Part shown: one piece after another, positions 2 to 28,766 of the stretch | Position numbering within the stretch: the stretch's first letter is position 1 | How the letters are laid out: each line of letters begins with the position of its first letter | Assembly: GCA_009379895.1 (NCBI GenBank) | Contig: WHSW01000012.1 | Span: 1 to 38,839 of the forward strand | Length of the DNA: 38,839 nt | Direction: 5' to 3' | DNA from: Solirubrobacterales bacterium | GTDB taxonomy: Bacteria > Actinomycetota > Thermoleophilia > Solirubrobacterales > 70-9 | The notes under the pieces: model-generated | Told to the model about the DNA's origin: nothing | Databases searched by the model: none | Seen by the model: the letters and a program-made list of their open reading frames with translations, nothing else | Program-made: the position numbers and the translations under genes

Positions 2-382
2 CTGGTGGCGATCTTCATCGCCCTCGGGGGCACCGCCTGGGCCGCCCAGCAGATCGGTCCCAACCAGATCAAGAAGAACGCGGTCCACTCCAAGCACATC
101 AAGAACAAGGAGGTGAAGGCGCCCGACCTCGACGACGGCGCGGACGCGGGACGCGGGCCGGCCGGCGACGAGGCCGCGATCGCCAATCTCGAGCGCCTGC
201 GCGAGCGCGGCGCCGACTACCTCGTGCTGCCGGCGACCGCGCTGTGGTGGCTCGACCAGCACGACGGCTTTCACCGCCACCTGGAGCGCTACCGGCGCCT
301 GAGCGACGACTCGGAGACCGCTCTCATCTACGAACTCTCTGAGACCGGCGAGCTCGGCGTCGAGGAGGAGCGGACCGCGTGA
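2..382 (+). CDS. Chimeric ORF: signal-anchor N-terminus joined to a fragment of the WWLDHY module (5' end outside window)
   Basis: The frame is open from the window edge, and the true start probably lies upstream. The first ~45 residues (ALGGTAWAA, then repeated Ile/Lys/His turns such as '[16 protein letters not shown]') look like the secreted 'ALGGTA(Y/W)A' proteins common in Solirubrobacterales-type genomes. From about position 158 the sequence changes to the second half of the module found in the next three proteins ([40 protein letters not shown]). The first half of that module, with its predicted ATVLV strand, is missing. The stop codon overlaps the next GTG by 4 bases, so the 3' half still sits in the operon. 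A deletion fusing two genes, or an assembly join, would explain it. I infer no function and it may be a pseudogene. Confidence 0.55.
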
Positions 383-1677
383 GCGTCGCCCAGTCCAACC
401 CGCCGCGTGGTAGGCGCCGGACGGTTCCGTTCCCCGAGGACCTGGTGTTGACGCCGGTCTCGCGGCGACCGACGCGGCTCGAGGACGCGACGCTCGACGG
501 CATCCTCGATCGCCCCGTGCCCGCCCTGACGGGGGCCTCCGCCGAGCGAGCCGAGGCGAGCGTGGTCGTCGTCACCCGCGACAACCTCGCCTTCCTCCGA
601 CTGTGTCTCGAGAGTGCGCTCGCCTGCACCGAGCCGCCTTGCGAGCTGATCGTCGTCGACAACGGCTCGCGCGACGGAACGCCCACCTACCTCGCCCGGC
701 TCGCCGAGAGCAACCCGAACGTGCGGGTGATCTCGAACGACTCCAATCGCGGGTTCGCGACGGGCTGCAACCAGGGCACGGCCCGGGCGGCGGGTGAGCT
801 GCTCGTGTTCCTCAACGACGACACCGCCGTGGGCCACGACTGGCTCCCACGCCTGGCGGCCCACCTGGAGGGCCCCCGGATCGGGATGGTCGGGCCCACC
901 ACGAACCGGACCGGAAACGAGGCCCAGGTCGACGCCGACTACCGGACCTGGGCCGAGCTCGTTCGCTTCGCCGACGCCCGCGCGAGTCGCCACGCCGGCG
1001 AGGCGTTCGAGATCCCGACCCTGACCATGTTCTGCGTCGCGATGCGCCGTTCGCTCTACCTGCAGGTCGGGCCGCTCGACGAGCGCTTCGAGACCGGGTT
1101 GCTGGAGGACGACGACTACGCGCGGCGGGTGCGCGAGGCGGGGTACCGCCTGCTGTGCGCGGACGACGCCTTCGTGCACCACTTCGGCGAGACCTCGTTC
1201 GGCAGGCTGGTCGCAAGCGGCGAGTACGCCCGCGTGCTGGCCGCCAACCGGGCCCGGTTCGAGGAAAAGTGGCGGGTGCCGTGGCAGCCCTACGAGCGCC
1301 GCCACAGCGATCGCTATCGGGCGCTGATCGAGCGCCTGCGGCGGGCAGTGATCGACGTGGTCCCCCCCGGCGCGACCGTGCTCGTCGTCAGCCGCGGCGA
1401 CGACCAGCTGCTGCGCATGGACAGGCGCCGGGCGCGGCACTTCCCGCGCGCCGACGACGGCTCCTATGCCGGCCACCACCCAGCCGACAGCCGCGAGGCG
1501 ATCGCCCTGCTCGAGGTGGAGCGGGCGAACGGCGCCGAGCACATCGTCTTCCCGGACACGGGGAGTTGGTGGCTCGAGCACTACGAGGGGCTGCGCCGGC
1601 ACCTCGACGGTTACGGCCGCAGCTTCTCCGATCCCGAGACCTGCGTAATCTTCGACCTCAGGGGGAGGGTGAGGTGA
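379..1677 (+). CDS. GT2 family glycosyltransferase with C-terminal WWLDHY module
   Basis: This is a 432-residue protein starting at a GTG that overlaps the preceding TGA. Residues ~60-280 are a GT-A fold family 2 glycosyltransferase: SVVVVTRDN opening strand, [11 protein letters not shown] nucleotide-binding loop, metal-binding LNDDTA at 145-150, and [16 protein letters not shown] (241-256) containing the usual ED-type catalytic region. These proteins transfer a sugar from a nucleotide-sugar donor on the cytoplasmic face. Residues ~312-427 (nt 1312-1659) are a complete copy of the shared module: [36 protein letters not shown] and CVIFDL. The last codons overlap the next gene by 4 bases, indicating translational coupling. 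The GT2 call is firm; donor and acceptor cannot be read from the sequence. Confidence 0.88.
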
Positions 1678-4235
1678 GCGAGCCGACGATCGTCTGCGTG
1701 CTGGGGATGCACCGCAGCGGAACGTCGCTGGTGTCAAGGGTGCTGAACGTGCTCGGCGTCGACCTCGGTCCCGAGGAGCACTTGATGCGGCCAGGCTTGT
1801 CGAACCCGGCCGGCTACTGGGAGAGCCGCCCGATCAAGGAGATCAACGACGAGATCCTTCGGCGCCTGGGGGGCAGCTGGGCGAAGCCGCCCGAGCTGGC
1901 GCCGGGCTGGGAGAGCCGGCGCGAGCTCAACGAGGTTCGGCGGCAGGCGCGCGCGTTGATCGAGTCCGATTTCTCGAGCGCCGACCTGTGGGGCTTCAAG
2001 GATCCCCGTGCCTCGCTCACGGCCCCCTTCTGGCAGCGGATGCTGGCTCCGATGCGCTACGTGGTCTGTGTTCGCAATCCGGTCGACGTCGCCGCCTCGC
2101 TCGAGGCTCGCGAGGAGGAGCGGGTGCCGTTCGACGAGGGCATGTGGCTGTGGCTCACCTACGTGCGCGCCGCCCTCGCCCACACGGCGGGACACCCGCG
2201 GCAGCTCGTCTTCTACGAGGACCTGATGGCCGACCCCGAGCCGGTGGTCGGCCGGCTGGCTCGCTTCATCGGCACCGATCGGTCGGACACCGCCGAGCTT
2301 GAAGGCCGCATGGCGATCCGCGTCGCGAGGAGCGAGGGGCTATGGCACCACAGGACGGCCGTCCCCAACGTCGTCGATGCCGGCCGGCTCCCGTTTCCGG
2401 TCAAGGCGCTCTATCTGGCGCTGCGTCTCTCCACTTCCGGCGGCGAGAGCATCGGTGGCGAGGTGCTCGACCTCCTCGCCGCGTATGCGGCCGGCGCCGG
2501 CCGCCACATTGCCGAGCTCGAGGCTCGACGGGGCGAGCTTGCGAAGGCCCGCGACCGGTCGCGGAGTCTCCAGACCGAGTTCGAGAAGGCCCGTGACCGG
2601 TCGCGCGGCCTCCAGGCCGAACTCGACGAAAGCCGCGCGCAGCTCCGAGGGCTCCGCGAGCAGTCGCGCAGCCTCAAGCGCGAACGGGCAGCGCTCGGGC
2701 GGCGTCTCGCCGAGCGCGAGGACGAGCTGGACGCAGACCGCGCGGAGCTCCGGAAACAACTGGACGCAGACCGCGCGGAGCTCGAGAGGCTCCGCGAGGA
2801 GTCGCCCAGCACCGAGGGCGGGGGTGGCACACCCTCCGCCGGCGGCCAGCGGGACGCCCCGGGCCCCGGGCCCGACAACGGCTACGGGCGCCTCGTCGCC
2901 GAGGTCCGAGCGCGAGCGCGAGAGGCGATCCCCTCCGGGGCGACCGTGCTGGTGGCCGGCAAGGGCGACGACGCGCTGCTGGAGCTCGATGGCTGCAGCG
3001 CCTGCCACTTCCCGGTCGCGGCGGACGGTAGCTACCTCGGGCATCACCCGGCGGGCGACACGGCTGTGATCGCGCAGCTCGAGGCGCTGCGTGCACGCGG
3101 CGCCGACCACCTTCTGCTGCCGGCGACGACGCTGTGGTGGCTCGACCACTACCACGGCCTCCGACGCCATCTCCAGGATCGCTACGTGACGCTGCTCGAG
3201 GACGACGACTGCGCCATCTACCGGCTTCGCGCCGGAGACCGAAGGCCAGCCGGGCCGATCGCCACGCTCAGGCGGGCCGTCGCCTGCGTGCGGATGCGCT
3301 CGGGTCGCGATCCCTCGATCCTGGACTGGCGCACCGAGCTGGGGATCGCCGACCAGCTCCCGGAGATGCCGGTCTTCGTCCCCCCGGGCGAGGAGCCCGT
3401 GCTCCCGTACCTCGACGGAACGGTCGACATCGTCGTCCTCGCCTCGGCGGACGTGGCGCAGATCGGGGAGGCACGCCGCGTCGCCGCGAGCGCCGTGATC
3501 AGGGTCGATCCGAGCTCCCCCGAAGAGGCCGAGCTCGAGTGGTCGGCAGGCGCTCCCAGCGGCTGGGGTGAGGACGTGAGCGTGACGCTCATTCCGGACG
3601 CCGACGCGCCCTGGGAACCGACCGTCAGCGCCTTTGCCGAGACACTGAACGACGGCTTCGCGGGAGAGCTGAGCGTGATCGGCGAGGCGGCAGAGCTCGG
3701 GCGCGCAAGCGAGCAGGCCGCCGCCGACGGTGTTGGCGTGCGGCTGATCGAGGCCCCCGCCGGAGCCAGCCTCGCGCGGCGCGCCCGCACGGCGGCGGAG
3801 GCGGGCGACCCGCGCGTACAGGTGCTCGTCACCGCCCCCGCGGTGCCGCTTCCGGACTGGCTGCCCCCGATCCTCGCCCTCTTCTCCGGTGACCGGGATG
3901 CGGGCGTGGTCGGGACGAGGACCCTATCCCGCGACGGAGCACTGGAGGAGGCGGGAGGCATCCTGGCCGCCGATGGGGCCCGCCGGCGGCGGGGCGAGGG
4001 GGAACACGATCCCGACCGGCCCGAGTACGGCTTCGTGCGGCGGGTGGACTTCTGCTCGCCGCCGCTGATCGCCACGAGACGGGACCTGTTCGAGCGGCTC
4101 GCGGGCCTCGACGAGCAGCGTGCGGCGCCAGCCGACGCCCTGGTCGACTTCTCGCTGCGCGCCGGGCGGAGCGGCGCGCCCGTCTACTACCAGCCGCAGG
4201 CGCGCGTGGTGGCGATCGGGGAGGAGAGTCGGTGA
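1674..4235 (+). CDS. Sulfotransferase / coiled coil / WWLDHY module / degenerate GT2 multidomain protein
   Basis: I chose the GTG at 1674 ([10 protein letters not shown]) because it overlaps the previous stop by 4 bases and begins right at the sulfotransferase fold. The longer upstream frame only shadows the GT2 gene. The protein has 853 residues. Residues 5-270 are a sulfotransferase-type domain: 5'-phosphosulfate loop [12 protein letters not shown] at 11-22 and 3'-phosphate motif [13 protein letters not shown] at 131-143. Residues ~280-375 are a heptad-like coiled coil with two near-identical LDADRAEL units. Residues ~404-518 (nt 2883-3227) are the shared module. Residues ~525-853 resemble the C-terminal GT-A part of large O-antigen-type GT2 proteins ([37 protein letters not shown]). 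However, the DxD position reads [11 protein letters not shown] and the ED base reads AD, so this domain is probably inactive. Confidence 0.8.
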
Positions 4236-6679
4236 ACGCCCGACGCGCCCTGATCATCGCCTCCCGGCTGCCCGAGTTCGACCGCGAGAGCGGACTGCTC
4301 CGGGTCTCAGACCTGATCGACATGCTCCTGCGCCGGGGCTGGGAGGTGACGTTCGGCTGCATGTACGAACCGACGGACGGAGAGCGCTACGCGCGCGAGC
4401 TCCAGCAGAGGGGGGTCGAGACCCACGCCCCGCTCGAGAGCCTCGACTCGATCCGCAACCCGGGTCGGTTCGACCTCGCGATCATCGCCTACTGGTACGT
4501 CGCGGAGCGGTTTCTTCCCGAGTTACGGCAAGCGTCGCCCTCGACGCGGGTGATCGTCGACTCGGTGGACCTGCATTTCCTACGCAACATGCGCGACAAC
4601 CTCCGCCCCGACGGCGGGGCGCCGGGGCAGCTCGAGACGAGCCAGGCGCGCAAGATGATCAGGGAGATCAACGCCTATGCCGCCGCGGACGCGGTGCTCA
4701 CGGTCTCCGAGAAGGAGGCGGCGATGATCAACGACGTCGCCGGACGCCCGGATCTAGCGCTTGCCCTCCCCGACGCCGAGGAGCTTCCTCGCTCCCGCGT
4801 GCCGCTGCGCAAGCGGGGCGGGATCCTATTCCTCGGCAACTTCCTGCACCCGCCAAACATCGACGCCGCGACCTTCCTTTGCGAGGAGATCGTCCCCCGC
4901 CTCGATCCCTCGCTGCTCGCCGAGCACGAGATCTCGATCGTCGGCACCGCGGCCGAGGAGCACGTGGGCGAACTGGCCGACGGGCTGCCTCACGTCAAGA
5001 CGGTGGGCTGGGTGCCGTCGGTGGTGCCCTATCTGAACGCCGCTCGCGCCTCCGTGGTCCCGCTACGTTACGGCGCCGGGACCAAGCGGAAGGTGATCCA
5101 GGCCCTGATGGCGGGCACCCCGACCGTGACCACCACCGTCGGCGCCGAGGGGCTCGGCGTCCGCGATCGGCGCCACGTCATGTTGGCCGACGATCCCGGG
5201 AGCTTCGCCGCCCGGATCGAGCACCTGCTGCGCCGGCCACTCGCCTGGCGCAGCCTGGCGCGCCGGGGTCGCACGCACGTGCTGCGGCTGCACGGACGCG
5301 CGACGGTCGCGGAGCGCTTCGACCGGGTGCTCGAGACGGTTCTCGCGCGCGCCGCCCAGCCGGCGGCGGTCCAGCCGGCGGGAGCCGATGGCGTCTTGAG
5401 GACGCCGGAGTACGCGCGGCTCGTCGCCCGGGTTCGCGAGGTCGTCGAGTCCAACACTCCAGCCAAGGCCCAGGTGCTGGTCGCCACGAAGGGCGACGCG
5501 GGCCTTCTCGCCTTCTCGGGGCGCCGCGGCTGGCACTTCCCGCGCGACAAGGACGCCGGATACGCGGGCTACCACCCGGCCGACAGCGAAGCGGCGATCG
5601 CCCACCTCGAGGAGCTGCGGGCGCAGGGGGCCACGCACCTGGTGTTGCCCCGAACCGCGTTCTGGTGGCTGGACCACTATCGGGGGTTGCGGGAGCACCT
5701 CGACTCCGCCTACCGGAGCGCCCGGCGAGACGAGGACGCGATCGTGTACGACCTGGCGGGGGAGGAGCGTGGGCCGGCCCCTTCCCCCCAGCCGCCCGTG
5801 CAAGCCCGCGAGAGGGCCGACGGTCATCGGGACCCCGACGCCGCCGGGCCCGGCAGGGATCCGGAGCCGGCCGCGACATCCTCGGCGGTCACCGCCGAGC
5901 TGATCCGCGGCCTGCGGCCGTCGGCGCTCGCGGCTGCATCGAGCTACCGCAACGGCGGGGCAGCGCGCCGGGCGCTTGTGCTGGGCGTCTATCTGGCCGG
6001 AAAACCGAACACGGCAGAGCACATCGCCGCCACGTTGGCTCGCTCCGTCGATCTCGAGGTGCGCCAGCGTTGGGTGGCGCTCGGCGGAGAGCCCGCCGAC
6101 GGTGAGCTTGGTGCCGTGACGGCCCTGACCGTGGCCGAGCCGACGCCCAAGTACGCGCTGCTCAACCGACTACTGGCGGATGAGGACCTCGCGAGCTACG
6201 ACTTCGTGGTCACGACCGATGACGACATCGTCGTCCCTGAAGGGTTCCTCGATCTCTTGCTCGGCATCCAGGCGGGCGTCGGGTTCGCTCTCGCCCAGCC
6301 CGCTCGCACTCAGAACTCACACGTCGATCATCCAATCGTGCTCCAGCAACACGGCGTGGTCGCCCGGCGAACCCTCTACGTCGAGATCGGGCCGGTCGCC
6401 AGCTTCGGGCGCGAGATCCACGAGCTCGTCTTCCCGTTCGACGAGACGAACGCGATGGGCTGGGGATTCGAGAACGTCTGGGCCCACCTACTGCGCGAGC
6501 GGGGCATATCGCAGGGCATCGTCGACGCCGTGCCCGTGGACCACAGCATGCGCAGCCCCGTCGCGCACTACAAGTGGGCGGATGCGAACGCTGACCGGGA
6601 TCGCTACTTCGCCAATCATCCGCATCTTCCCTACGAGGAATGCTTCCGGGTCCTCGACGTCGTCGGGGTGGAGCGATGA
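4232..6679 (+). CDS. Two-headed glycosyltransferase: GT4 (GT-B) / WWLDHY module / GT-A-like domain
   Basis: This is an 815-residue protein with a GTG start overlapping the upstream TGA by 4 bases. Residues 1-375 form a GT-B glycosyltransferase of the group 1/GT4 kind: a short N-terminal Rossmann half, then GGILFLGNFLHPPNIDA (196-212), VGWVPSVVPYLNAARASVVPLRYGAGTKRKVIQALMAG in pieces across 258-295, and the TVTTTVGAEGL loop at 297-308. Residues ~394-508 (nt 5411-5755) are the shared module (YAGYHPADS, WWLDHYRGLREHL, AIVYDL). A Pro/Ala/Arg-rich linker follows. Residues ~575-815 look like a GT-A domain with a metal-binding TTDDDIVVP at 661-669 and a GWGFENVW motif near 743-750, reminiscent of the GWGxED motif of galactosyltransferase-like GT-A enzymes. 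One chain could add two sugars in sequence. The GT4 call is firm; the C-terminal assignment is moderate. Confidence 0.82.
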   Translation: MNARRALIIASRLPEFDRESGLLRVSDLIDMLLRRGWEVTFGCMYEPTDGERYARELQQRGVETHAPLESLDSIRNPGRFDLAIIAYWYVAERFLPELRQASPSTRVIVDSVDLHFLRNMRDNLRPDGGAPGQLETSQARKMIREINAYAAADAVLTVSEKEAAMINDVAGRPDLALALPDAEELPRSRVPLRKRGGILFLGNFLHPPNIDAATFLCEEIVPRLDPSLLAEHEISIVGTAAEEHVGELADGLPHVKTVGWVPSVVPYLNAARASVVPLRYGAGTKRKVIQALMAGTPTVTTTVGAEGLGVRDRRHVMLADDPGSFAARIEHLLRRPLAWRSLARRGRTHVLRLHGRATVAERFDRVLETVLARAAQPAAVQPAGADGVLRTPEYARLVARVREVVESNTPAKAQVLVATKGDAGLLAFSGRRGWHFPRDKDAGYAGYHPADSEAAIAHLEELRAQGATHLVLPRTAFWWLDHYRGLREHLDSAYRSARRDEDAIVYDLAGEERGPAPSPQPPVQARERADGHRDPDAAGPGRDPEPAATSSAVTAELIRGLRPSALAAASSYRNGGAARRALVLGVYLAGKPNTAEHIAATLARSVDLEVRQRWVALGGEPADGELGAVTALTVAEPTPKYALLNRLLADEDLASYDFVVTTDDDIVVPEGFLDLLLGIQAGVGFALAQPARTQNSHVDHPIVLQQHGVVARRTLYVEIGPVASFGREIHELVFPFDETNAMGWGFENVWAHLLRERGISQGIVDAVPVDHSMRSPVAHYKWADANADRDRYFANHPHLPYEECFRVLDVVGVER

Positions 6680-7422
6680 CCGACCGCACGCACCGATACT
6701 TCTTCGTCCACATCATGAAGACGGCGGGAGGCTCGCTTCGCCGACGACTGAGAAATCACTTCGGCGAGGCCGCGGTCTACCCGACTACGGGATTGGACGG
6801 CACCGACCCCGTGAAGCTGAATCTCTCGATCGATCATCTTCGCGAGCGGCTGGCGGCACGGGGGGACCAGATCCGGGTCATAACCGGTCACCTCCCGCTG
6901 CGCACGACGGACCTGATCGACGGTAGGTTCACGACGCTGACGCTGCTCCGCGAACCGGTCGAGCGCACGCTCTCGTATCTGCGGGAACGGCAGGCTCGCC
7001 GGCCCGCTGCGGGCGGGTCTCGCGAGGAGATGTACGACGACCTCCATGGCCTGACGGCTAACGAGATGACGAAGGTGCTCGTGTTGACGCCGCAGGAGAT
7101 GCGGGCGTCGATGTTCACCCCTCCGAAGCTCACCCGCGACCACCGCGAGCGTGCCAAGGAAGCGCTCGCCGGCATTGACGCCGTGGGCCTTCAGGAGCAC
7201 TTCGAGGAGTTCTGCGACGAGCTCGCGGCTCGCTTCGGCTGGTCCCTCGGCCCGCCCGTGACGGTGAACGCCACCGCCCCGGTCGAGGTCTCCGAGAGCT
7301 TCCGCGCGCGGATCGCGGAGGACAACGCGTTCGATGTCGAGCTTTACGAGTTCGCGAAGTGGCTTCGGCACGACGACGGCTCGCCGCATGAGCGCCCGGG
7401 TATCGTCGGAGCGGACCGATGA
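6676..7422 (+). CDS. Sulfotransferase family protein (Sulfotransfer_2-like)
   Basis: I chose the ATG at 6676 because it overlaps the previous stop as ATGA and leaves a 248-residue protein beginning just before the phosphosulfate loop. FFVHIMKTAGGSLRRRL (9-25) matches the 5'-PSB loop of PAPS-dependent sulfotransferases that start 'FxHIxKTAGTS', and LTLLREPVERTLSYLR (88-103) is the 3'-phosphate-binding motif. Such enzymes move sulfate from PAPS to sugar hydroxyls or amines. A close paralogue is encoded at 22877-23632: both share AVYPT, RARIAEDNA and the ending ELYEFA. The tail of ~15 residues after WLRHDDGS is unrelated between them. The gene lies in the coupled run and ends overlapping the next ATG. 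The acceptor is unknown. Confidence 0.8.
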   Translation: MTDRTHRYFFVHIMKTAGGSLRRRLRNHFGEAAVYPTTGLDGTDPVKLNLSIDHLRERLAARGDQIRVITGHLPLRTTDLIDGRFTTLTLLREPVERTLSYLRERQARRPAAGGSREEMYDDLHGLTANEMTKVLVLTPQEMRASMFTPPKLTRDHRERAKEALAGIDAVGLQEHFEEFCDELAARFGWSLGPPVTVNATAPVEVSESFRARIAEDNAFDVELYEFAKWLRHDDGSPHERPGIVGADR

Positions 7423-9371
7423 CGGCCCTCTCATCAGACGACCGACCGCTGATCAGCGTCGTGCTTCCCACGTACCAGCGGGCGGCGCTGCTCGAGCGCT
7501 GCCTGGAGAGCCTGACGGCGCAGACACTGCCGCGCTCGCGGTTCGAGGTCGTGGTCGTCGACGACGGGTCGAGCGACTGGACGGCGAGCGTCTGCGCTCG
7601 GCTCGCCGATGAACTTCCGATGCGCAGCTTCCGGATCGAGAAGTCGGGTAACTCGGCGGCGAAGAACCTCGGGCTGTTCGCCTCGCAGGCGCCCCTGGTG
7701 CTGTTCTTCGACGACGACGACCTCGCCGACCCGGGCCTGCTCGAGGCGCACGTCGAGGCCCACCGCGAGCGTCCCGAGGAGAACGTCGCGGTGCTCGGCC
7801 ACACCACCTGGGCGCCCGAGCTCGAGATCACTCCGCTGATGGAGTACGTGACCGAGATCGGGCAGCTGCTGTTCTCGTACCGCAACCTCGAGGACGGCCA
7901 GCGGCTCGACTGGAGCTACTTCTGGGCGGGCCGGCTCTCGTGCAAGCGCTCCTTCGTGGCCCAGCACGGGATCTTCGCCCAGGGCTTCCCGGCGATCATC
8001 GAGGACATCGAGCTCGGCTTCCGCCTCGCCAAGCAGGGCCTCGACATCGTGCATGTTCGCTCGGCCCGGAGCTTCATGGCGCGCCCGGTCAGCTTCGACG
8101 AGTTCGCGCAGCGCTGTATGAGGAAGGGGCGTGGCCTCTGGGTGTTCCAGAGCCGCCACGACGATCCCGCCGTCAAGCGCTACTGCCGCGTCGCCGAGGC
8201 GCTCGAGAAGTGGCCCTCGCTGGCGCCGGCGCTGGACGAGAGAATGGAACGGGCGCGCGAGCTCGAGCGGCGCCACAGCGAGCGGGGCGAGCTGGCCGAG
8301 GGCGATCTCAGCGAGCTGCGAGAGCTCTACCGCTGGACGTTCGCCGCGCTCGAGGCGCGCGGCGTCGCCGAGGCCGCGGCGGAGGCCGGTGAGCCGAGGG
8401 ACGCGCCCGCGCACGCGGTGGCGACCGGCCCGGCTCGCGTGCCGGAGATCTGCCCCGACCCGGTGTTCATCATCGGCTCGCCGAGGTCGGGGACGAGCAT
8501 CCTCGCCTGGTCGCTCGCCCAGCACAGCGAGCTCTGCACCGATGCCGAGACCGACATCTTCTACTACATGCTCAAGGACGGTCATCTGCAGCGCGCGTTC
8601 GAAACTTCGGTCGGGAGGCCGGACGGCACGTGGCTCGCCAACCACGGGGTCGATTTCAGGCGGTTCCTCGGTCATCTCGGGCTCGGCCTGAACGCGCTCC
8701 TGACCGCCACCGCCAACGGTCGCCGGTGGGTCGATCAGACCCCCGCCAACACGCTCGTCGTCGACCGGCTCGCGGAGATGTTCCCGGGGGCACGCTTCCT
8801 CCACATCCTCAGGGACGGCCGCAGGGTCGTGCACTCGATGGTCAACTTCCACCGCGTCTTCGGCGACCCCGACACCGTCGAGCGGATGAAGGCCGCCGGC
8901 CGCCTGGCCCCGTGGACGACCGACTTCGGCGACGCGTGCCGCACTTGGGCGCGCTTTACCGGGATCGCCGCCGACTTCTGCGGCCGCCATCCGGACCACG
9001 CCTTTACGGTCACCAACGAGCGCCTGATCGCCGACCCCGACCAAGCCATGCGCGAGGTGCTCGAATTCCTCGGCGTGCCCGAGGAACCGGCGCCGGGGCG
9101 CTTCCTTCGCACGCAGAGGATCAACTCGAGCTTCGTGGACTCGGGCAGCTCCGCACAGGCGCCACCGGCGCTGACCGAGCCGTGGCGGGACTGGCTCCGC
9201 GAGCAGCGTGATGCCTTCTTCGAGGCGGCGGGCGAGACGATGGTCGCGTGTGGACTGGCCACCGAGGGCGAACTGCTCCGTGGGGGGGACTCGACCGATG
9301 GCGGCGGGACAGCAAACGGCGGCGCTCGGACGGCAAGCGGAATCCCAATCCCTGGTGATGGCCGACCGTAA
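7419..9371 (+). CDS. GT2 glycosyltransferase-sulfotransferase fusion
   Basis: This 650-residue protein has an ATG overlapping the previous TGA (ATGA). Residues 10-240 are a canonical family 2 glycosyltransferase: ISVVLPTYQRAALLERCLESL, VVVVDDGSSDWT (45-54) and FFDDDDLADPG (97-106) as the metal-binding region, then IIEDIELGFRLAKQG (193-207). A helical, charged stretch (~255-320) and an Ala/Pro-rich linker follow. Residues ~345-630 are a complete sulfotransferase: PDPVFIIGSPRSGTSIL (347-362) for the 5'-phosphosulfate and FLHILRDGRRVVHSMVNF (460-477) for the 3'-phosphate. The second half is homologous to the entire next gene, so it probably arose by tandem duplication or fusion. Both sets of key residues are intact, so one chain could add a sugar and then sulfate it, or do so on neighbouring acceptors. 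Confidence 0.87.
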   Translation: MTALSSDDRPLISVVLPTYQRAALLERCLESLTAQTLPRSRFEVVVVDDGSSDWTASVCARLADELPMRSFRIEKSGNSAAKNLGLFASQAPLVLFFDDDDLADPGLLEAHVEAHRERPEENVAVLGHTTWAPELEITPLMEYVTEIGQLLFSYRNLEDGQRLDWSYFWAGRLSCKRSFVAQHGIFAQGFPAIIEDIELGFRLAKQGLDIVHVRSARSFMARPVSFDEFAQRCMRKGRGLWVFQSRHDDPAVKRYCRVAEALEKWPSLAPALDERMERARELERRHSERGELAEGDLSELRELYRWTFAALEARGVAEAAAEAGEPRDAPAHAVATGPARVPEICPDPVFIIGSPRSGTSILAWSLAQHSELCTDAETDIFYYMLKDGHLQRAFETSVGRPDGTWLANHGVDFRRFLGHLGLGLNALLTATANGRRWVDQTPANTLVVDRLAEMFPGARFLHILRDGRRVVHSMVNFHRVFGDPDTVERMKAAGRLAPWTTDFGDACRTWARFTGIAADFCGRHPDHAFTVTNERLIADPDQAMREVLEFLGVPEEPAPGRFLRTQRINSSFVDSGSSAQAPPALTEPWRDWLREQRDAFFEAAGETMVACGLATEGELLRGGDSTDGGGTANGGARTASGIPIPGDGRP

Positions 9372-20279: not shown

Positions 20280-22880
20280 ATGAGTCGCCCCCGATTCGAC
20301 AGAGCAGCGCCTGGGTGCGGCGCGGAAGGCCGAGCGGCGAAGGCGAGCCCGGATAGCCGGGGGCCGGCGGGCGAGGAATCGCCGGTCGAATCCTCCGAGG
20401 GGGCGCTCGAGGGCCACGCGGCGCGGGCCGCTCGCCGCTACCTCGACCTGCTCCGCGACGCCTTGCTCGACCAGCACTACCTGGAGAACGAGCTGCGCAT
20501 CCAGCACCTGCTGGAGTGCGTGGGCGCCGGCCGCGAGGCCGACCCCGACAAGCTGGCCAATCCGGCCCGCCACATGGTCGGCCCCCTGCGCCGGCTCAAG
20601 CAGGAGAGGCAGGCCGGCCAGCTCCCCGGCGGTGAGGCGGAGGCGGCGGCCAGCCTGGAGGCGCTCGCCTACGCGCAGGTCGGCCGCACCCGCCTCGATC
20701 ATCTGGAGTCCTGCCTGGCCGCGATCCGGGACGACGGAATCGCGGGGGACCTGGTCGAGTGCGGGCCCGGCCGCGGCGGCGCCGCGATCTTCATGCGCGG
20801 CTTTCTCGAGTCCCACGAGCTGGTGGGGCCCCACGTGTGGGTGGCCGATCGCTTCGAGATCCCCGGCGCTCGCGAAGCCGACGGGCACTGGAGGCTGCCG
20901 CTCGACGTGAACGCGATGCGCGAGGGGTTCGCGCGCTTCGGGCTGCTCGACGATCGCGTCTCGTTCCTGCAGGGCCCGCCGGCGCGCACGCTCGCCGAAG
21001 CCTCGCTCGGGGAGGTGGCGCTGCTGCGGGTGGACGGCCACGACCCCGACGAGGTCACCGCGATCCTCGACGCCGTCTACGACAGGGTCGCTGCCGGAGG
21101 CTTCGTGATCGTCGACGACTACGGAGCAATGGGCTGCGGACCGGCGGTTGATCGGTTTCGCTCCCAGCGTGGCGTGGTGGAAGCGCTCGATCGGGTCGAC
21201 TGGAGCGCCGCCGCTTGGCGCAAGGCCGCGCCGGCCGGGGCCGGGTCGCCCACGGCCGTGTCCGCGTCTGGGATCGACGGCGCCGGGACGAGCGCGCCCG
21301 CGACCGCGACCAAGGATCTGTCGGTGGTGGTCGTCGTCCACAACATGCGCCGCGAGGCGGCCCGGACCCTGCACTCGCTGTCGCGCGCCTATCAGCGCGG
21401 GGTCGAGGACCTCGACTACGAGGTGATCGTGGTCGAGAACGGCTCGGATCCCGAGCAGAGGCTCGGGGCCGAGCTCGTGCGGAGCTTCGGTGAAGGGTTC
21501 CGTTACATCGACCTCGGCGAAGAGGCGGCGCCGTCGCCCGCCCCGGCCGCCAATCGGGGGATCTCCACCTCGAGCGGTCGCGCCGTCGCCCTGATGATCG
21601 ACGGCGCCCACATGCTGACGCCCGGCGTCCTGCGCCTGGGCATGCTCGGCCTGTCCACCTACGCGCCCGCCATCGTCACCGCGCGGCAGTGGTACGTGGG
21701 GCCCGGCCAGCAGCCGCAGATGGTCGCCGGCGGCTACGGCCGCGAGCTCGAGGATCGTCTCCTCGCTCAGATCGATTGGCCCACCGACGGATACCGGCTG
21801 TTCGAGGTCGGGCACTTCATCGGTAACCGCGACTGGTTCGACGGAGAATGGGAGAGCAACTGCATCTTCGTCCCCGGGACTCTCCTCGAGCAGGTCGGCG
21901 GCATGGACGAGAGCTTCTCGATGCCCGGAGGCGGGTTCGTCAACCTCGACTTCTTCGAGCGGATGGTGGGCTCGCCGGGGGTGAACCTCGTGACGATCCT
22001 GGGTGAAGGCTCGTTCCATCAGGTCCATGGCGGGACGACCACCAACCTCGGCGCGGCGGACGAGCTCGACGGCCTTGTCAAGTCCTACGAGGACCACTTC
22101 GCCGAGCTGCGGGGACGCCGGTTTCAGGTGCCGCCCCAGCGGGCGCACTATGTCGGCAGCCTGCCGCCACCCGCCCGCCGAACCAGGGCGCGCCGCATGA
22201 GCAGCGCCGAGAGCTTCAGGGCCGCCCACGCCCCGGCGGCCGACCGGCGACCGGTCGATCCCATGCCCGTGCCGGAGGAGCTGGGGGCCGAGTTCAGCGA
22301 TGCCTTCTGGCGCAGCGGGGAGTGGCATCGGACGATGTGGTTGGGCAGGGCGACCCACAAGGCGCCGACCGATCTGCTCGCCTACCAAGAGCTCATCTTC
22401 CGCCTCCGCCCCGACTGGGTCGTGGAGACGCGAACGGGCGCGGGCGGGCGGGCCCTGTTCTTGGCCTCGATCTGCGACCTGATCGACAACGGTCGCGTGC
22501 TCTCGATCGACGATTATCCGCTCGCCGATCCCCCCGACCACCCGCGCATCGCCTACCTGCGCGGTGACCCCGCCGCCGAGCGCAGCGCCGCGCGGGCGAG
22601 CGAGATCGTCGGGGCGCGGGCGAGGGCCCTGGTCATCCTGGGAGCCGCCGTGGGCCCTCAGATGATCGCCGCCTTCCGCAACTACGCGCCCCTGGTGCCG
22701 GTGGGCTCCTACGTGGTGGTCGAGGAGACGATCCTGGCAACGGTGTGGCCCGGCTTCGGGTCGACTCCGGCGGCGGCGGTTCAGAGGATCGTCGACGAGG
22801 GTGATTTCGCCCGCGACCTGTCGCTCGAGCGCTTCGCGCTCAGCTTCAACGCCGGCGGGTTCCTGAGGCGGATCCGGTGA
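20280..22880 (+). CDS. Triple-domain protein: TylF-type O-methyltransferase / GT2 / CmcI-like methyltransferase
   Basis: This 866-residue protein has an ATG start. Residues ~50-315 are TylF-like: GDLVECGPGRGGAAIFMRGFL (156-176), ADRFEIPG, LLRVDGHDPDEVTAIL (248-263) and VIVDDYG (276-282). Residues ~345-610 are GT2-like: LSVVVVVHNMRREAARTLHSL, VIVVENGSD (382-390) and ALMIDGAHML (437-446) in the DxD position, then GGMDESFSMPGGGFVNLDFFERM. Residues ~660-866 follow the cephalosporin-hydroxylase/rhamnosyl O-methyltransferase (CmcI) pattern: TDLLAYQELIFRLRPDWVVET, GAGGRALFLASI, GRVLSIDDYP and PVGSYVVVEE. In the last domain the glycine before TGAGG is Arg (ETRTGAGG) and the usual LDSDH metal region reads LGAAVG, so it may be inactive. 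The stop overlaps the next GTG by 4 bases. Confidence 0.8.
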   Translation: MSRPRFDRAAPGCGAEGRAAKASPDSRGPAGEESPVESSEGALEGHAARAARRYLDLLRDALLDQHYLENELRIQHLLECVGAGREADPDKLANPARHMVGPLRRLKQERQAGQLPGGEAEAAASLEALAYAQVGRTRLDHLESCLAAIRDDGIAGDLVECGPGRGGAAIFMRGFLESHELVGPHVWVADRFEIPGAREADGHWRLPLDVNAMREGFARFGLLDDRVSFLQGPPARTLAEASLGEVALLRVDGHDPDEVTAILDAVYDRVAAGGFVIVDDYGAMGCGPAVDRFRSQRGVVEALDRVDWSAAAWRKAAPAGAGSPTAVSASGIDGAGTSAPATATKDLSVVVVVHNMRREAARTLHSLSRAYQRGVEDLDYEVIVVENGSDPEQRLGAELVRSFGEGFRYIDLGEEAAPSPAPAANRGISTSSGRAVALMIDGAHMLTPGVLRLGMLGLSTYAPAIVTARQWYVGPGQQPQMVAGGYGRELEDRLLAQIDWPTDGYRLFEVGHFIGNRDWFDGEWESNCIFVPGTLLEQVGGMDESFSMPGGGFVNLDFFERMVGSPGVNLVTILGEGSFHQVHGGTTTNLGAADELDGLVKSYEDHFAELRGRRFQVPPQRAHYVGSLPPPARRTRARRMSSAESFRAAHAPAADRRPVDPMPVPEELGAEFSDAFWRSGEWHRTMWLGRATHKAPTDLLAYQELIFRLRPDWVVETRTGAGGRALFLASICDLIDNGRVLSIDDYPLADPPDHPRIAYLRGDPAAERSAARASEIVGARARALVILGAAVGPQMIAAFRNYAPLVPVGSYVVVEETILATVWPGFGSTPAAAVQRIVDEGDFARDLSLERFALSFNAGGFLRRIR

Positions 22881-25257: not shown

Positions 25258-26379
25258 TCAGCCTATGCCGGCCTGCTCGCAAAACCGGGCCAGCACGCGC
25301 CCGGCGTCGAAGTGCTCCTCGGCGATCCGGCGCGCGGCCCGGCAATGCTCGGCGTAGCGGTCGGCGATGTCGGCGGCCCCGGCGACCGCGTCCTCCAGCG
25401 TGCGGAACGCGACCAGGCCCTCCCCGACCGGCAGGGTGTCGCCGAACCCCGTGTCCTGGACGAGCGCGGGGCGACCCGAGGCGAGGTACCGGGTGGTGCG
25501 GTCGCTGAACCAGCCGCTGCGCGTGTCGACGTAGATGCCCTGGGCGACGGAGAACTCCGCCCCCGAGCCTTGCACGTAGGCGCGAAAGGCATCGAGGTCC
25601 CCGACCACAGACCGCGGGTCGACTATGCGCCAGCCGTTGGCGCCTAGCGCCTCCAGGTCACGGCCGTCGGCCGGATGGATGTCGAGCGCGATCTCGAAGC
25701 GCTCGCCCGAGCGCTGCGGCAGCTCGATCATCTTGCGGAACTCGTGGTGCTTGAGCCCGTAGGTCCGGCCGCCGTGCTCGATCGGCCCGAAGGGCCCGCG
25801 CCAGCTCGAGATGGTGGTGAAGCGATCCAGGCCCGCCGGGTCCATCGCCGGCCAGTCGTCGAGCACGACCGGTGGGCTCACCGGGTGCCAGTCGATGCCT
25901 TCGGTCGGGATCTGGCAGGCGGGCGTGCCGATCAGCGCCCCGACGGTGAAGTGCATGTCGTGGCCCTCCACGCCCGCCCCGGCCAGGCCCTGGGCGTGCC
26001 AAAACTGCGTGAAGCCGGGGTCGAGGTCGATGAAGATGCGCCGACGGAAACGCTCGCGCAGGGTCGAAGGGCCCAACTCTCCGCTGACGTTGACGAGCGT
26101 CGCCTCGGGCGCCAGGGCCGCGAGGTCCTCGGCCGCCGGCCCCGCGATCGCCTCATCGCCGAGAAGAAGGGTCGCCCGCTCGCCGATCCCGAAGCGCCCC
26201 GTCACCGCCTCGAACCAGGCGACCGCCTCGGGGTCGGCATCCGGGCCCGCGAGCCGCTCGACGAAGCGCACGTCGAGGCCGAGCCGCTCGAGGCCTCGCA
26301 CCCAGCTCATCCGCACCCACGCCTCGCCGCTGGAGCCCGGCTTGTTGGCGAGCGTCCCGCCGACCACGACCGTGGTCAT
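25258..26379 (-). CDS. GT-B-like glycosyltransferase, paralogue 3 of 3
   Basis: I chose ATG 26379 (MTTVVVGGTLANKPGSSGEAW), overlapping the upstream stop as ATGA. The protein has 373 residues. It shares with the next two genes a GGxLAxxPGxxGxxW N-terminus, RRIFIDLDPGFTQFWHAQGL (113-132), WRGPFGPIEHGGRTYGLKHHEFRK (193-216, here in pieces) and the C-terminal GWFSDRTTRYLASGRPALVQDTGFGDTLPVGEGL region (from 289). The last segment matches the nucleotide-sugar side of GT-B enzymes annotated as Glyco_trans_1_2. The N-terminal half is less typical. It is probably a glycosyltransferase acting on the same product as its paralogues, with donor unknown. Confidence 0.72.
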   Translation of the reverse strand: MTTVVVGGTLANKPGSSGEAWVRMSWVRGLERLGLDVRFVERLAGPDADPEAVAWFEAVTGRFGIGERATLLLGDEAIAGPAAEDLAALAPEATLVNVSGELGPSTLRERFRRRIFIDLDPGFTQFWHAQGLAGAGVEGHDMHFTVGALIGTPACQIPTEGIDWHPVSPPVVLDDWPAMDPAGLDRFTTISSWRGPFGPIEHGGRTYGLKHHEFRKMIELPQRSGERFEIALDIHPADGRDLEALGANGWRIVDPRSVVGDLDAFRAYVQGSGAEFSVAQGIYVDTRSGWFSDRTTRYLASGRPALVQDTGFGDTLPVGEGLVAFRTLEDAVAGAADIADRYAEHCRAARRIAEEHFDAGRVLARFCEQAGIG

Positions 26380-27533
26380 GCGATGCCCAGCGCGGCGAGC
26401 ACGCGCGGCAGCACGCGATCGGCGGCGAGGTGCTCGCGGGCCAGCTCCCGAGCAGCGCGGCCGTGGCGGCGCGGGTCGGCGAGGATGCCTTCGGCGCCGG
26501 CCGCCGCCTCGTCCAGCGTGCTGAAGCAGAGCAGTCCCTCGCCGCAGGGGAGCAGTTCCGAGAAGCCCGTGTCCTGGGCGAGGACGGGACGGCCGCTCGC
26601 CAGATAGCAGGCGCTGCGATCGCTGAACCAGCCGCTGCGGGTATCGACGTAGAGGTTCTTGGCGATCATCAGCTCGGCGGACGAGCGCTGGACGTAGTCG
26701 TGGTATCGCCACGGGTCGGCGGCCGCGGCACGCGGATCCACCAGCATCCAGCCGTGGTCCTCGAGCCGGCGCCGGTCGACCGCATCCGCCTCGTCGATGT
26801 CGAGCGCGATCTCGAAGCTCGCCCGGGTCCGAGCCGGGAGCTCCAGAAAGCGTCGGAACTCGTGGACTCGCAGCCCGTAGGTGCGGCCCTCGTACTCGAG
26901 CGGCCCGAACGGCCCGCGCCAGCTCACGACGCTCGTGAAACGGCTGCCACGTACGGGACTCTGGGGCCACTGCGAGAGCTCCACCGGCGCCAGCGTCGGC
27001 AGCCACTCGATGCCGCCGGTGGGTATGGCGCAGTCTGGGGCGCCCACTCGCGCGCCGACCGTCAGATACCGGTCGTGACCCGCGAAGGGATGATCGAGGT
27101 CCAGCGCCTGCCAGATCTGGCCGAACCCGGGGTCGATGTCGAGGAAGACTCGAAGCGGCGTCGCGGCGAGGATCTCCTCGTCGTCGAGGAAGCCCATCAC
27201 GTTGAGGAGCAGGACCGAGCGCCTCGCAAGCTCGATCGCCTCCGTGCGGTCGCGCCCGGCGACCTCGCGACCCCCGTCGTAGAGCAGCGTCCAGCGGTCC
27301 GCGAGCCCGAAGCGCTCCATCACGCGGGCGAGGTATTCGAGGTTGGCCGAGGCGCGAAACGACGACGGCGAACCGGCCGCGTCGACGCACATTCCCGGCT
27401 CCAGCCGATCGACGAAGTGGACGTCGAAGCCCAGGTGGCGAAAGCCGAGCAGGTACTGCAGGAAGACCCAGGTGTGCCCGCCGTGCCCGGGCCGCTGGGC
27501 CAGCGAGCCGGCGACGATTATCGTCTCGCCCAT
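26376..27533 (-). CDS. GT-B-like glycosyltransferase, paralogue 2 of 3
   Basis: This is a 385-residue protein with ATG 27533. It opens MGETIIVAGSLAQRPGHGGHTW and contains RVFLDIDPGFGQIWQALDL, SWRGPFGPLEYEGRTYGLRVHEFRRFLELP (in pieces) and GWFSDRSACYLASGRPVLAQDTGF. These are the same blocks in the same order as in the flanking paralogues, with family-typical length. The stop overlaps the next start as ATGA. Upstream lies an 81-base gap holding a reversed fragment of a fourth copy, so the original operon was probably rearranged at this point. Donor and acceptor are unknown. Confidence 0.72.
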   Translation of the reverse strand: MGETIIVAGSLAQRPGHGGHTWVFLQYLLGFRHLGFDVHFVDRLEPGMCVDAAGSPSSFRASANLEYLARVMERFGLADRWTLLYDGGREVAGRDRTEAIELARRSVLLLNVMGFLDDEEILAATPLRVFLDIDPGFGQIWQALDLDHPFAGHDRYLTVGARVGAPDCAIPTGGIEWLPTLAPVELSQWPQSPVRGSRFTSVVSWRGPFGPLEYEGRTYGLRVHEFRRFLELPARTRASFEIALDIDEADAVDRRRLEDHGWMLVDPRAAAADPWRYHDYVQRSSAELMIAKNLYVDTRSGWFSDRSACYLASGRPVLAQDTGFSELLPCGEGLLCFSTLDEAAAGAEGILADPRRHGRAARELAREHLAADRVLPRVLAALGIA

Positions 27534-27548
27534 GGCCGCCCTCAGGTT

Positions 27549-27614
27549 CTGAGCGCTCCGACGGTCATCGTCGGCGGCATGATCGCAGCGATGCCGAGGC
27601 AGGGAGGGGCGACG
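27549..27614 (+). pseudogene. Remnant 5' end of a fourth GT-B-like paralogue, reverse orientation
   Basis: Reading plus-strand codons from 27549 gives an N-terminus containing TVIVGGMIAAMPRQGGAT (about 27561-27614). It aligns with TILLSGMLAGNPHQGGAT of the neighbouring minus-strand protein at 10 of 18 positions and with TIIVAGSLAQRPGHGG of the other. The similarity stops abruptly at the stop codon of the 27615-28766 gene. Its orientation is opposite to its three relatives. I interpret it as the leftover start of a deleted or inverted copy. At ~20 residues, chance is not fully excluded. Confidence 0.5.
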
Positions 27615-28766
27615 TCAGGCCGCCACCTGCTCGAGGACACGGGTCAGCACCTTGTCCGAATCGAAGTACTCCTCCGCAAGGGCCCGGGCGGCGCGCGCAT
27701 GCCCCTGATAGTCGCGGTTCAGCTCCTCGATCGCAGCCAGCGCGTCTTCCTCGGTCTCGAACGCGAACACGCCTTCGCCGGTCGGAAGCCAGCGGCCAAA
27801 TCCTGTGTCCTGGGAGAGGACCGGTCGCCCAGAGGCCATGTAACAGGCGCTGCGGTCGCTGAACCAGCCGCAGGGGGCCACGACGCAACCCTGCTGGACG
27901 AGCCCGAACTCCGCCTTCGACCCCTGAACGAAGCTCCGGTAGGACGTCGGAGTCGAGGAGACCTCCGCCGGATCGATGAGATCCCAGCCATTGCGGCCGA
28001 GGGCTTCGAGGTCCTTCGTCTCGTCGGGGTGAATCGCCAGCGCGAGGAGGAAACGCTCGCTCGTCCTGGTGGGCAGGGTGATCAGCTGCCGCAGCGAATG
28101 CACCTTTTGGCCGATGAGTAGACCCTCGTGCTCGAATCGGCCCGAGGAGCGCCAGTTGCCGACCGTGGTCAGGGCGTCGTAGAAAATGGATTGGGCGACC
28201 GGCCAATGCTCGAGCACCACCGGCTGGACGCTCTTCAGCCATTCGACTCCACAGGTGGGGATGGGCGACCAAGGCTCACCGATTCCCTGGCCGATCGTGA
28301 CGTGGCAAGTGTGGCCGTCGAAGCGCCGGTCGAAGCCCGCCGAGTGCCAGAGCTGGTTGAAACCGGCGTCGATATCCATGTAGACACGAACCGGAGCAGC
28401 CTCGAGAAGCTCCTCCGCGGCGAGGAGCCCGTTGATGTTGACCAGCAGGTCACTGCGCCTCGCCGCCGACCGCACGTCTTCGTACGAGAGGCCGACCGCT
28501 TCTCTCGTCCCCTCGAGCATGAGCGCGGATTGGTGCTCGAAGCCGAAACCACGCATCACTTCGAGGAAGTACCTCGCGTTCACGGATGCGGGAAGCGGCG
28601 CCCCTCGCGGCCGGAGCGCGTCGGCGGCGACCGGCTCGACGATATGGACCAGGTGGCCGAGCCGCCTCAGCCCGAGCGCATACTGCAGCACCGCCCACGT
28701 TGCTCCGCCCTGATGCGGGTTGCCGGCGAGCATGCCGCTGAGAAGGATCGTCAGGTTTTTTGGCAC
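27615..28766 (-). CDS. GT-B-like glycosyltransferase, paralogue 1 of 3
   Basis: I chose GTG 28766 (MPKNLTILLSGMLAGNPHQGGATW) because the family N-terminus starts here; the longer frame would run across the divergent deacetylase gene. The protein has 383 residues. Family blocks: VRVYMDIDAGFNQLWHSAGF, EHEGLLIGQKVHSLRQLITLP and CGWFSDRSACYMASGRPVLSQDTGF. It differs from the others in having VVAPCGW where they have VDTRSGW. Only 12 bases separate its start from the divergent deacetylase start, and it appears to be leaderless. It ends abutting the remnant of a fourth copy. Confidence 0.72.
   Translation of the reverse strand: MPKNLTILLSGMLAGNPHQGGATWAVLQYALGLRRLGHLVHIVEPVAADALRPRGAPLPASVNARYFLEVMRGFGFEHQSALMLEGTREAVGLSYEDVRSAARRSDLLVNINGLLAAEELLEAAPVRVYMDIDAGFNQLWHSAGFDRRFDGHTCHVTIGQGIGEPWSPIPTCGVEWLKSVQPVVLEHWPVAQSIFYDALTTVGNWRSSGRFEHEGLLIGQKVHSLRQLITLPTRTSERFLLALAIHPDETKDLEALGRNGWDLIDPAEVSSTPTSYRSFVQGSKAEFGLVQQGCVVAPCGWFSDRSACYMASGRPVLSQDTGFGRWLPTGEGVFAFETEEDALAAIEELNRDYQGHARAARALAEEYFDSDKVLTRVLEQVAA

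Follow-up and report, generated by a model that had tools for sequence, protein, structure and literature searches.

What do a family GT2 glycosyltransferase, a sulfotransferase and a family GT4 glycosyltransferase have in common, such that each carries the same stretch of about 115 residues? The question is raised by the window analysed here, the first 38,839 nucleotides (nt) of a contig of a Solirubrobacterales bacterium (WHSW01000012.1, assembly GCA_009379895.1), whose first genes encode three full copies and one partial copy of a module with the motif WWLDHY, hereafter the WWL module. The module is a genuine, uncatalogued domain family common to unrelated glycan enzymes, and it marks a recurring glycan operon. 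We propose, with a probability of about 0.42, that it is a reused tail domain of GT39 glycosyltransferases, recognising an acceptor glycan or carrier common to these enzymes. The module profile was built from the window copies themselves, so that its E-values below express their mutual agreement:

379-1677, + strand: protein 1, a GT2 glycosyltransferase (PF00535, E 1e-28, aa 61-226) with a C-terminal module
1315-1674, + strand: module copy 1 (profile E 8e-63)
1674-4235, + strand: protein 2, a sulfotransferase (PF13469, E 9e-12), a coiled coil (coiled-coil matches), a module and a degenerate GT2-like domain (PF13641, E 0.007)
2883-3242, + strand: module copy 2 (profile E 4e-62)
4232-6679, + strand: protein 3, a GT4 glycosyltransferase (PF13692, E 1e-20, aa 198-334), a module and a GT2-like domain with TTDDD (PF13506, E 0.08, aa 648-716)
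5411-5770, + strand: module copy 3, the reference for the AlphaFold model (profile E 1e-62)
110-343, + strand: a truncated module, its C-terminal two thirds, within the open reading frame (ORF) 5-382 (profile positions 40-117 of 121, E 2e-34)

An initial annotation, made from the sequence alone, had described three full copies and one C-terminal fragment, and profile matches and alignment recovered all four in place, together with the motifs GD, HFP, G-Y-x-G-(H/Y)HPA, LE-x-x-R-x-x-GA, WWL-(D/E)-HY, HL and (I/V)-(Y/F)-x-L. The full copies share 48-51% identity, a likeness far beyond chance; taken together with the truncated copy the figure is 42-50%. Moreover, the four profile matches, all on this contig, are the only ones in the genome. 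The hosts were also read correctly: Pfam places a GT2 domain ahead of copy 1 and a sulfotransferase, with the coiled coil, ahead of copy 2, and copy 3 lies between a GT4 domain and the weakly matched TTDDD domain. The 'dead GT2' named behind copy 2 is a reasonable label, since TAPAVP stands where the metal-binding acidic motif would be expected; the Pfam match there is very weak.

As the annotation had supposed, the module has no named domain: neither Pfam, NCBIfam nor the PDB sequences hold a family for it, no Pfam match covers it among 143 members, and a literature search, within the papers available to us, found no publication on the domain or its gene cluster. PDB-sequence matches at E 0.003 were to designed TIM barrel repeats that align with a single helix, and were set aside as chance. 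The module is not a catalogued carbohydrate-binding module (CBM), as no CBM family occurs among the Pfam matches of the 143 members and an α/β fold is predicted; nor is it an S-adenosylmethionine (SAM)-dependent methyltransferase, with no Pfam methyltransferase match in the same members and fold matches at E-values of at least 0.04. Thus no characterised family was matched, and the module is widespread beyond the locus in which it was noticed (see below).

The AlphaFold model, computed with copy 3 as the reference and 143 sequences, is confident (predicted local distance difference test, pLDDT, 94; predicted template modelling score, pTM, 0.88) and shows an α/β fold in the order helix, strand, short helix, strand, helix, strand, two helices and strand hairpin, in line with the alternation of strands and helices first proposed. 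The same check, continued with Foldseek against the PDB and BFVD, yielded no significant structural match (best E 0.04); the weak matches were to SAM methyltransferases, the C-terminal domain of AglB and ArnT. Residues G28, D29, H42, F43, P44, G53, P56, G73, P80, W85, W86, L87, Y90 and L97 are highly conserved; the conserved motifs are GD, HFP, Y-x-G-x-x-P and WWL-x-x-Y. The tryptophan pair, called invariant by the annotation, is 96% conserved in 82 copies chosen without regard to the WWL pattern, and its conservation is therefore not an artefact of retrieval. In the predicted fold the conserved polar and aromatic residues fall at or just behind strand ends, where they may form a ligand-type pocket.

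A link to a known group of proteins came from the tails of certain GT39 enzymes (PMT_2 in Pfam, with the GT-C fold). A tblastn search of plasmids with copy 3 gave weak matches (E 4e-3 to 9e-3) to the C-termini of Rhizobium genes annotated as glycosyltransferase family 39, one of whose products Pfam confirmed as PMT_2. A profile free of GT-C rows scored three Rhizobium GT39 proteins at 31-34 bits (with Z=1e6, E-values of about 1e-6 to 1e-5); the same profile found no match in 34 other GT-C open frames, and profile-profile comparison with two groups of other GT-C tails found none either. GT-C tails at large, as encoded by relatives of the window, were accordingly rejected as homologues; kinship is confined to some of the GT39 tails. 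In Verrucomicrobial PMT_2 proteins the module stands directly behind the last transmembrane helix, at the protein end, and retains G28, D29, H42, F43, G53, P56, the WW pair and Y90. Because the GT-C-free profile detects the Rhizobium tails and these Verrucomicrobial proteins end in a module, we regard the module as a remote homologue of one group among the GT39 tails; transfer would presumably have run from the tail to the module. The Rhizobium tail of WP_094088744.1 is recognisably homologous to the module across about 100 residues, in GD, R-x-G-W-x-F-P and AI-x-x-L-x-x-L-R-x-x-GA, and in a final I/V-Y-x-L, whereas the Rhizobium tails lack WWL-x-x-Y. The C-terminal position is the same in the Verrucomicrobial relatives; in the window, however, the modules are attached to soluble GT2, GT4 and sulfotransferase domains and not to a multi-spanning PMT_2 domain. 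Hydropathy and charge counts on the GT-C relatives gave no clear topology signal.

Two membrane enzymes offer more distant comparisons. The CC unit of the oligosaccharyltransferase (OST) AglB (3vu0) is mixed alpha/beta, and the predicted fold of the module may resemble it (weak fold match, probability 0.63, template modelling score 0.49, E 0.12); the OSTs AglB, PglB and STT3 share with the module a Trp-Trp motif and the placement of the unit C-terminal to a glycan-transfer enzyme; the module, however, has WWL-(D/E)-(H/Y)-Y and not WWDYG, and no sequence link was found. ArnT (5ezm, 5f15) also gave a weak fold match (probability 0.47-0.60; the match does not state which part of ArnT is aligned), but with no significant E-value, and ArnT is a membrane enzyme.

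To see how far the module extends beyond the window, 84,980 species genomes were scanned; it occurs in 76 loci from many phyla, including Actinomycetota, Verrucomicrobia, Chloroflexi, Gemmatimonadota, Planctomycetes, Acidobacteria and Proteobacteria; the scan demanded WWL-(D/E/S)-(H/Y/F)-Y, so that members lacking this pattern are undercounted. Its occurrence is patchy: 7 of 61 relatives (the window's genome counted), 9 of 299 genomes of the window's class, 3 of 396 of its phylum and 8 of 188 of one Verrucomicrobial class. Nearly all of the genomes that carry it are metagenome-assembled, and contamination or breaks are possible in any single one. A viral or phage origin was rejected, as no viral or phage relatives of the module were found and no viral locus appeared among the scan results.

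An iterated profile search of the loci gave 181 domain matches, and the module forms the C-terminal end of the protein in 108 of 150 host ORFs. Among 98 module proteins the hosts were GT2 (49), GT4 (14), sulfotransferase (12) and PMT_2 (7), the others occurring singly or a few times; methyltransferases (TylF), PIG-L, GT8 and WbsX are among the rarer ones. Genomes often hold 2-11 copies when the hosts are soluble, and mostly one when they are PMT_2 proteins. The nearest relative of a module lies mostly in another genome (123 of 131), and we therefore rejected recent duplication within the genome; nearest modules sat on the same host class in 40 of 58 cases, against 21% after shuffling. Modules are thus closer to those on the same type of host abroad than to copies in their own genome, as would fit a constant ligand. 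In one Chloroflexi locus (L033, 2766-8902) five genes in a row each have a module at their end, on hosts that are of sulfotransferase type by local profile search, one of them confirmed by Pfam.

Several operons end with a protein that has no recognisable enzyme domain and combines an intact module with a degenerate one; such operon-closing twin-module proteins were seen in Actinomycetota, Chloroflexi, Planctomycetes and Gemmatimonadota:

L058, 7025-7813: twin-module protein without enzyme domain
L065, L056, L044, L043, L054, L062, L030, L060 and L071: further twin-module proteins of this kind

In their second copy the pocket residues are mostly lost. For one twin-module protein AlphaFold (single chain, 12 sequences) predicts two well-folded beads (pLDDT mostly above 90 each) joined by a disordered linker, with a pTM of 0.50, and does not support a fixed packing of one module against the other; the degenerate copy keeps the fold though its pocket is gone.

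The operon recurs with recognisable neighbours. One subfamily of ATP-binding cassette (ABC) exporters is present in about 31 of the 76 loci, its gene often overlapping the next by a few bases; in the PDB it is related to B-family exporters, including MsbA, and flipping of lipid-linked glycans as by PglK (PMC5395944) would be an analogy for its role. A GT4-like domain, here called gt1, is found in about 55 loci, where it commonly shares a protein with GT2 and the module, and in about eleven loci a synthase combining a glycoside hydrolase (GH)-like domain with GT2 lies upstream of the exporter. The order is GH-like plus GT2 synthase, ABC exporter, the protein with GT4-like, GT2 and module parts, further module enzymes and, often last, a twin-module protein.

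How might one domain serve such different hosts? Their donors and chemistries vary (sugar nucleotides, PAPS (3'-phosphoadenosine 5'-phosphosulfate), SAM and deacetylation), but all hosts act on glycans; the module would therefore read something common, be it acceptor glycan, carrier or partner protein, and most economically the acceptor, which alone is shared. We infer ligand binding, the nature of the ligand and a recruiting role as follows: a small α/β domain akin to the soluble C-terminal part of some GT39 enzymes would have been reused for recognition by enzymes whose operon assembles and exports a glycan; through a pocket of D29, H42, Y51, W85, W86 and Y90 it would bind the shared acceptor, that is the growing glycan or its carrier; and successive enzymes would thereby be kept on one substrate until the ABC exporter moves it. 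The operon context agrees with the annotation's suggestion that consecutive enzymes may be held on one glycan by the module. Several points weigh against acceptor binding. The putative pocket residues were placed from the secondary structure, not from coordinates; all structure matches are weak, and GT-C tails rank no higher among them than SAM methyltransferase folds; WWLDHY may resemble the WWDYG of OSTs by coincidence; more than half of the loci lack such an exporter within the DNA fetched; and the degenerate second modules imply some use of the fold that is independent of the pocket.

The strong rival is protein docking, in which the module would bind a shared partner protein, be it the ABC exporter, the GH-like plus GT2 synthase or the twin-module protein, and so build a membrane-proximal enzyme complex. 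The repetition of the module on consecutive enzymes, usually at the C-terminus, and the enzyme-free proteins at operon ends, which could serve as scaffolds, allow docking equally, and the conserved exporter accompanies the module. A docking surface accords less well with the fact that pocket-like G, D, H, Y and W residues are strongly conserved across phyla, or with the GT-C loci, where no such exporter occurs in the fetched DNA. These residues persist there although the tail domain of a GT-C enzyme is expected on the opposite side of the membrane. Nor is there any sign that modules co-evolve within a genome. The retention of the pocket-like residues, in GT-C relatives as well, the lack of within-genome co-evolution and the binding of the acceptor sequon by the OST C-terminal unit (PMC3703281) lead us to place acceptor binding ahead of docking, which we hold to be somewhat less probable.

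Homotypic oligomerisation, with modules binding one another and so clustering their enzymes, could draw on the many copies per operon and the tandem pairs; the disordered linker predicted in the twin-module protein speaks against it, and we give it little credence. Slightly less probable again is a small catalytic domain working on the glycan or its carrier: D29, H42, Y51, H55 and Y90 are conserved and enzyme-free module proteins exist, but no enzyme family was matched, the same catalysis on each consecutive enzyme would be odd, and GT39 tails are not known to act as independent enzymes. Least probable of all is that the module is a structural appendage that serves stability and nothing more specific; that degenerate second modules still keep their fold would agree with it, yet WW, GD, HF and P are near-invariant in first copies across phyla.

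The loci may tentatively be taken as an undescribed, horizontally spread system of glycan assembly and export, whose enzymes would all have a recognition domain in common with a membrane glycosyltransferase family and which would include enzyme-free twin-module adaptors. It would be a glycan assembly line, analogous in logic to what docking or carrier domains do in other modular pathways; like dockerins, polyketide synthase docking domains and CBMs, one module is found on different enzymes of one pathway, although its fold differs from theirs and no family match was obtained. The order and processivity of glycan pathways are usually attributed mainly to enzyme specificity; a recognition domain shared by glycosyltransferases, sulfotransferases and methyltransferases would give substrate channelling a physical basis. 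GT39 tails themselves are known, and what is new is the use of a related domain on soluble enzymes. The kinship with these tails, the enzyme-free twin-module proteins and the accompanying exporter go beyond the initial annotation. In practice, the WWL module would be a tag for locating such clusters in environmental genomes, and it is a soluble, easily expressed relative, suited to binding studies, of the GT39 tails, whose role is poorly defined.

Two further sets of genes in the window's genome are of kinds seen in the recurring operon:

Contig C167 (locus L195), 1337-3809: GH-like plus GT2 synthase and, overlapping it downstream by 4 bp, the N-terminal part of an exporter that belongs to the operon's ABC subfamily
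Window, 25258-28748, - strand: three tandem gt1 copies (E 5e-54, 2e-61 and 9e-51)

On C167 the exporter is cut by the contig end after its first 146 codons; the window, for its part, opens within a module. The two contigs are possibly neighbours, with the C167 pair as the missing upstream part of the window's cluster. The three gt1 genes are the only ones in this genome, gt1 being commonly fused to GT2 and the module in other genomes, and Pfam barely recognises them (PF13524, E 5e-5 or weaker).

The partial module at the window start is a true module match, as annotated; its truncation, by contrast, probably reflects a chimeric contig end and not a real half module. From nt 1 to about 150 the window encodes, in frame with the half module, part of a repeated 'ALGGTAWA...' secreted-protein family; this resemblance to a family repeated elsewhere in the genome makes an assembly chimera the likeliest explanation. 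Short matches of the contig start elsewhere in the genome span 35-62 nt at 79-97%, and nt 1-61 resembles other contigs.

Other fused or related genes follow the module cluster, all on the + strand. A 260-aa ORF at 6640-7422, beginning FFVHIMKTAGGSLRRRL, reads as sulfotransferase-like, with no Pfam match at 1e-5. The next, 7419-9371, joins an N-terminal GT2 to a C-terminal sulfotransferase in one protein, and at 20280-22880 a TylF methyltransferase, a GT2 and a CmcI/rhamnosyl O-methyltransferase domain are fused in a single protein.

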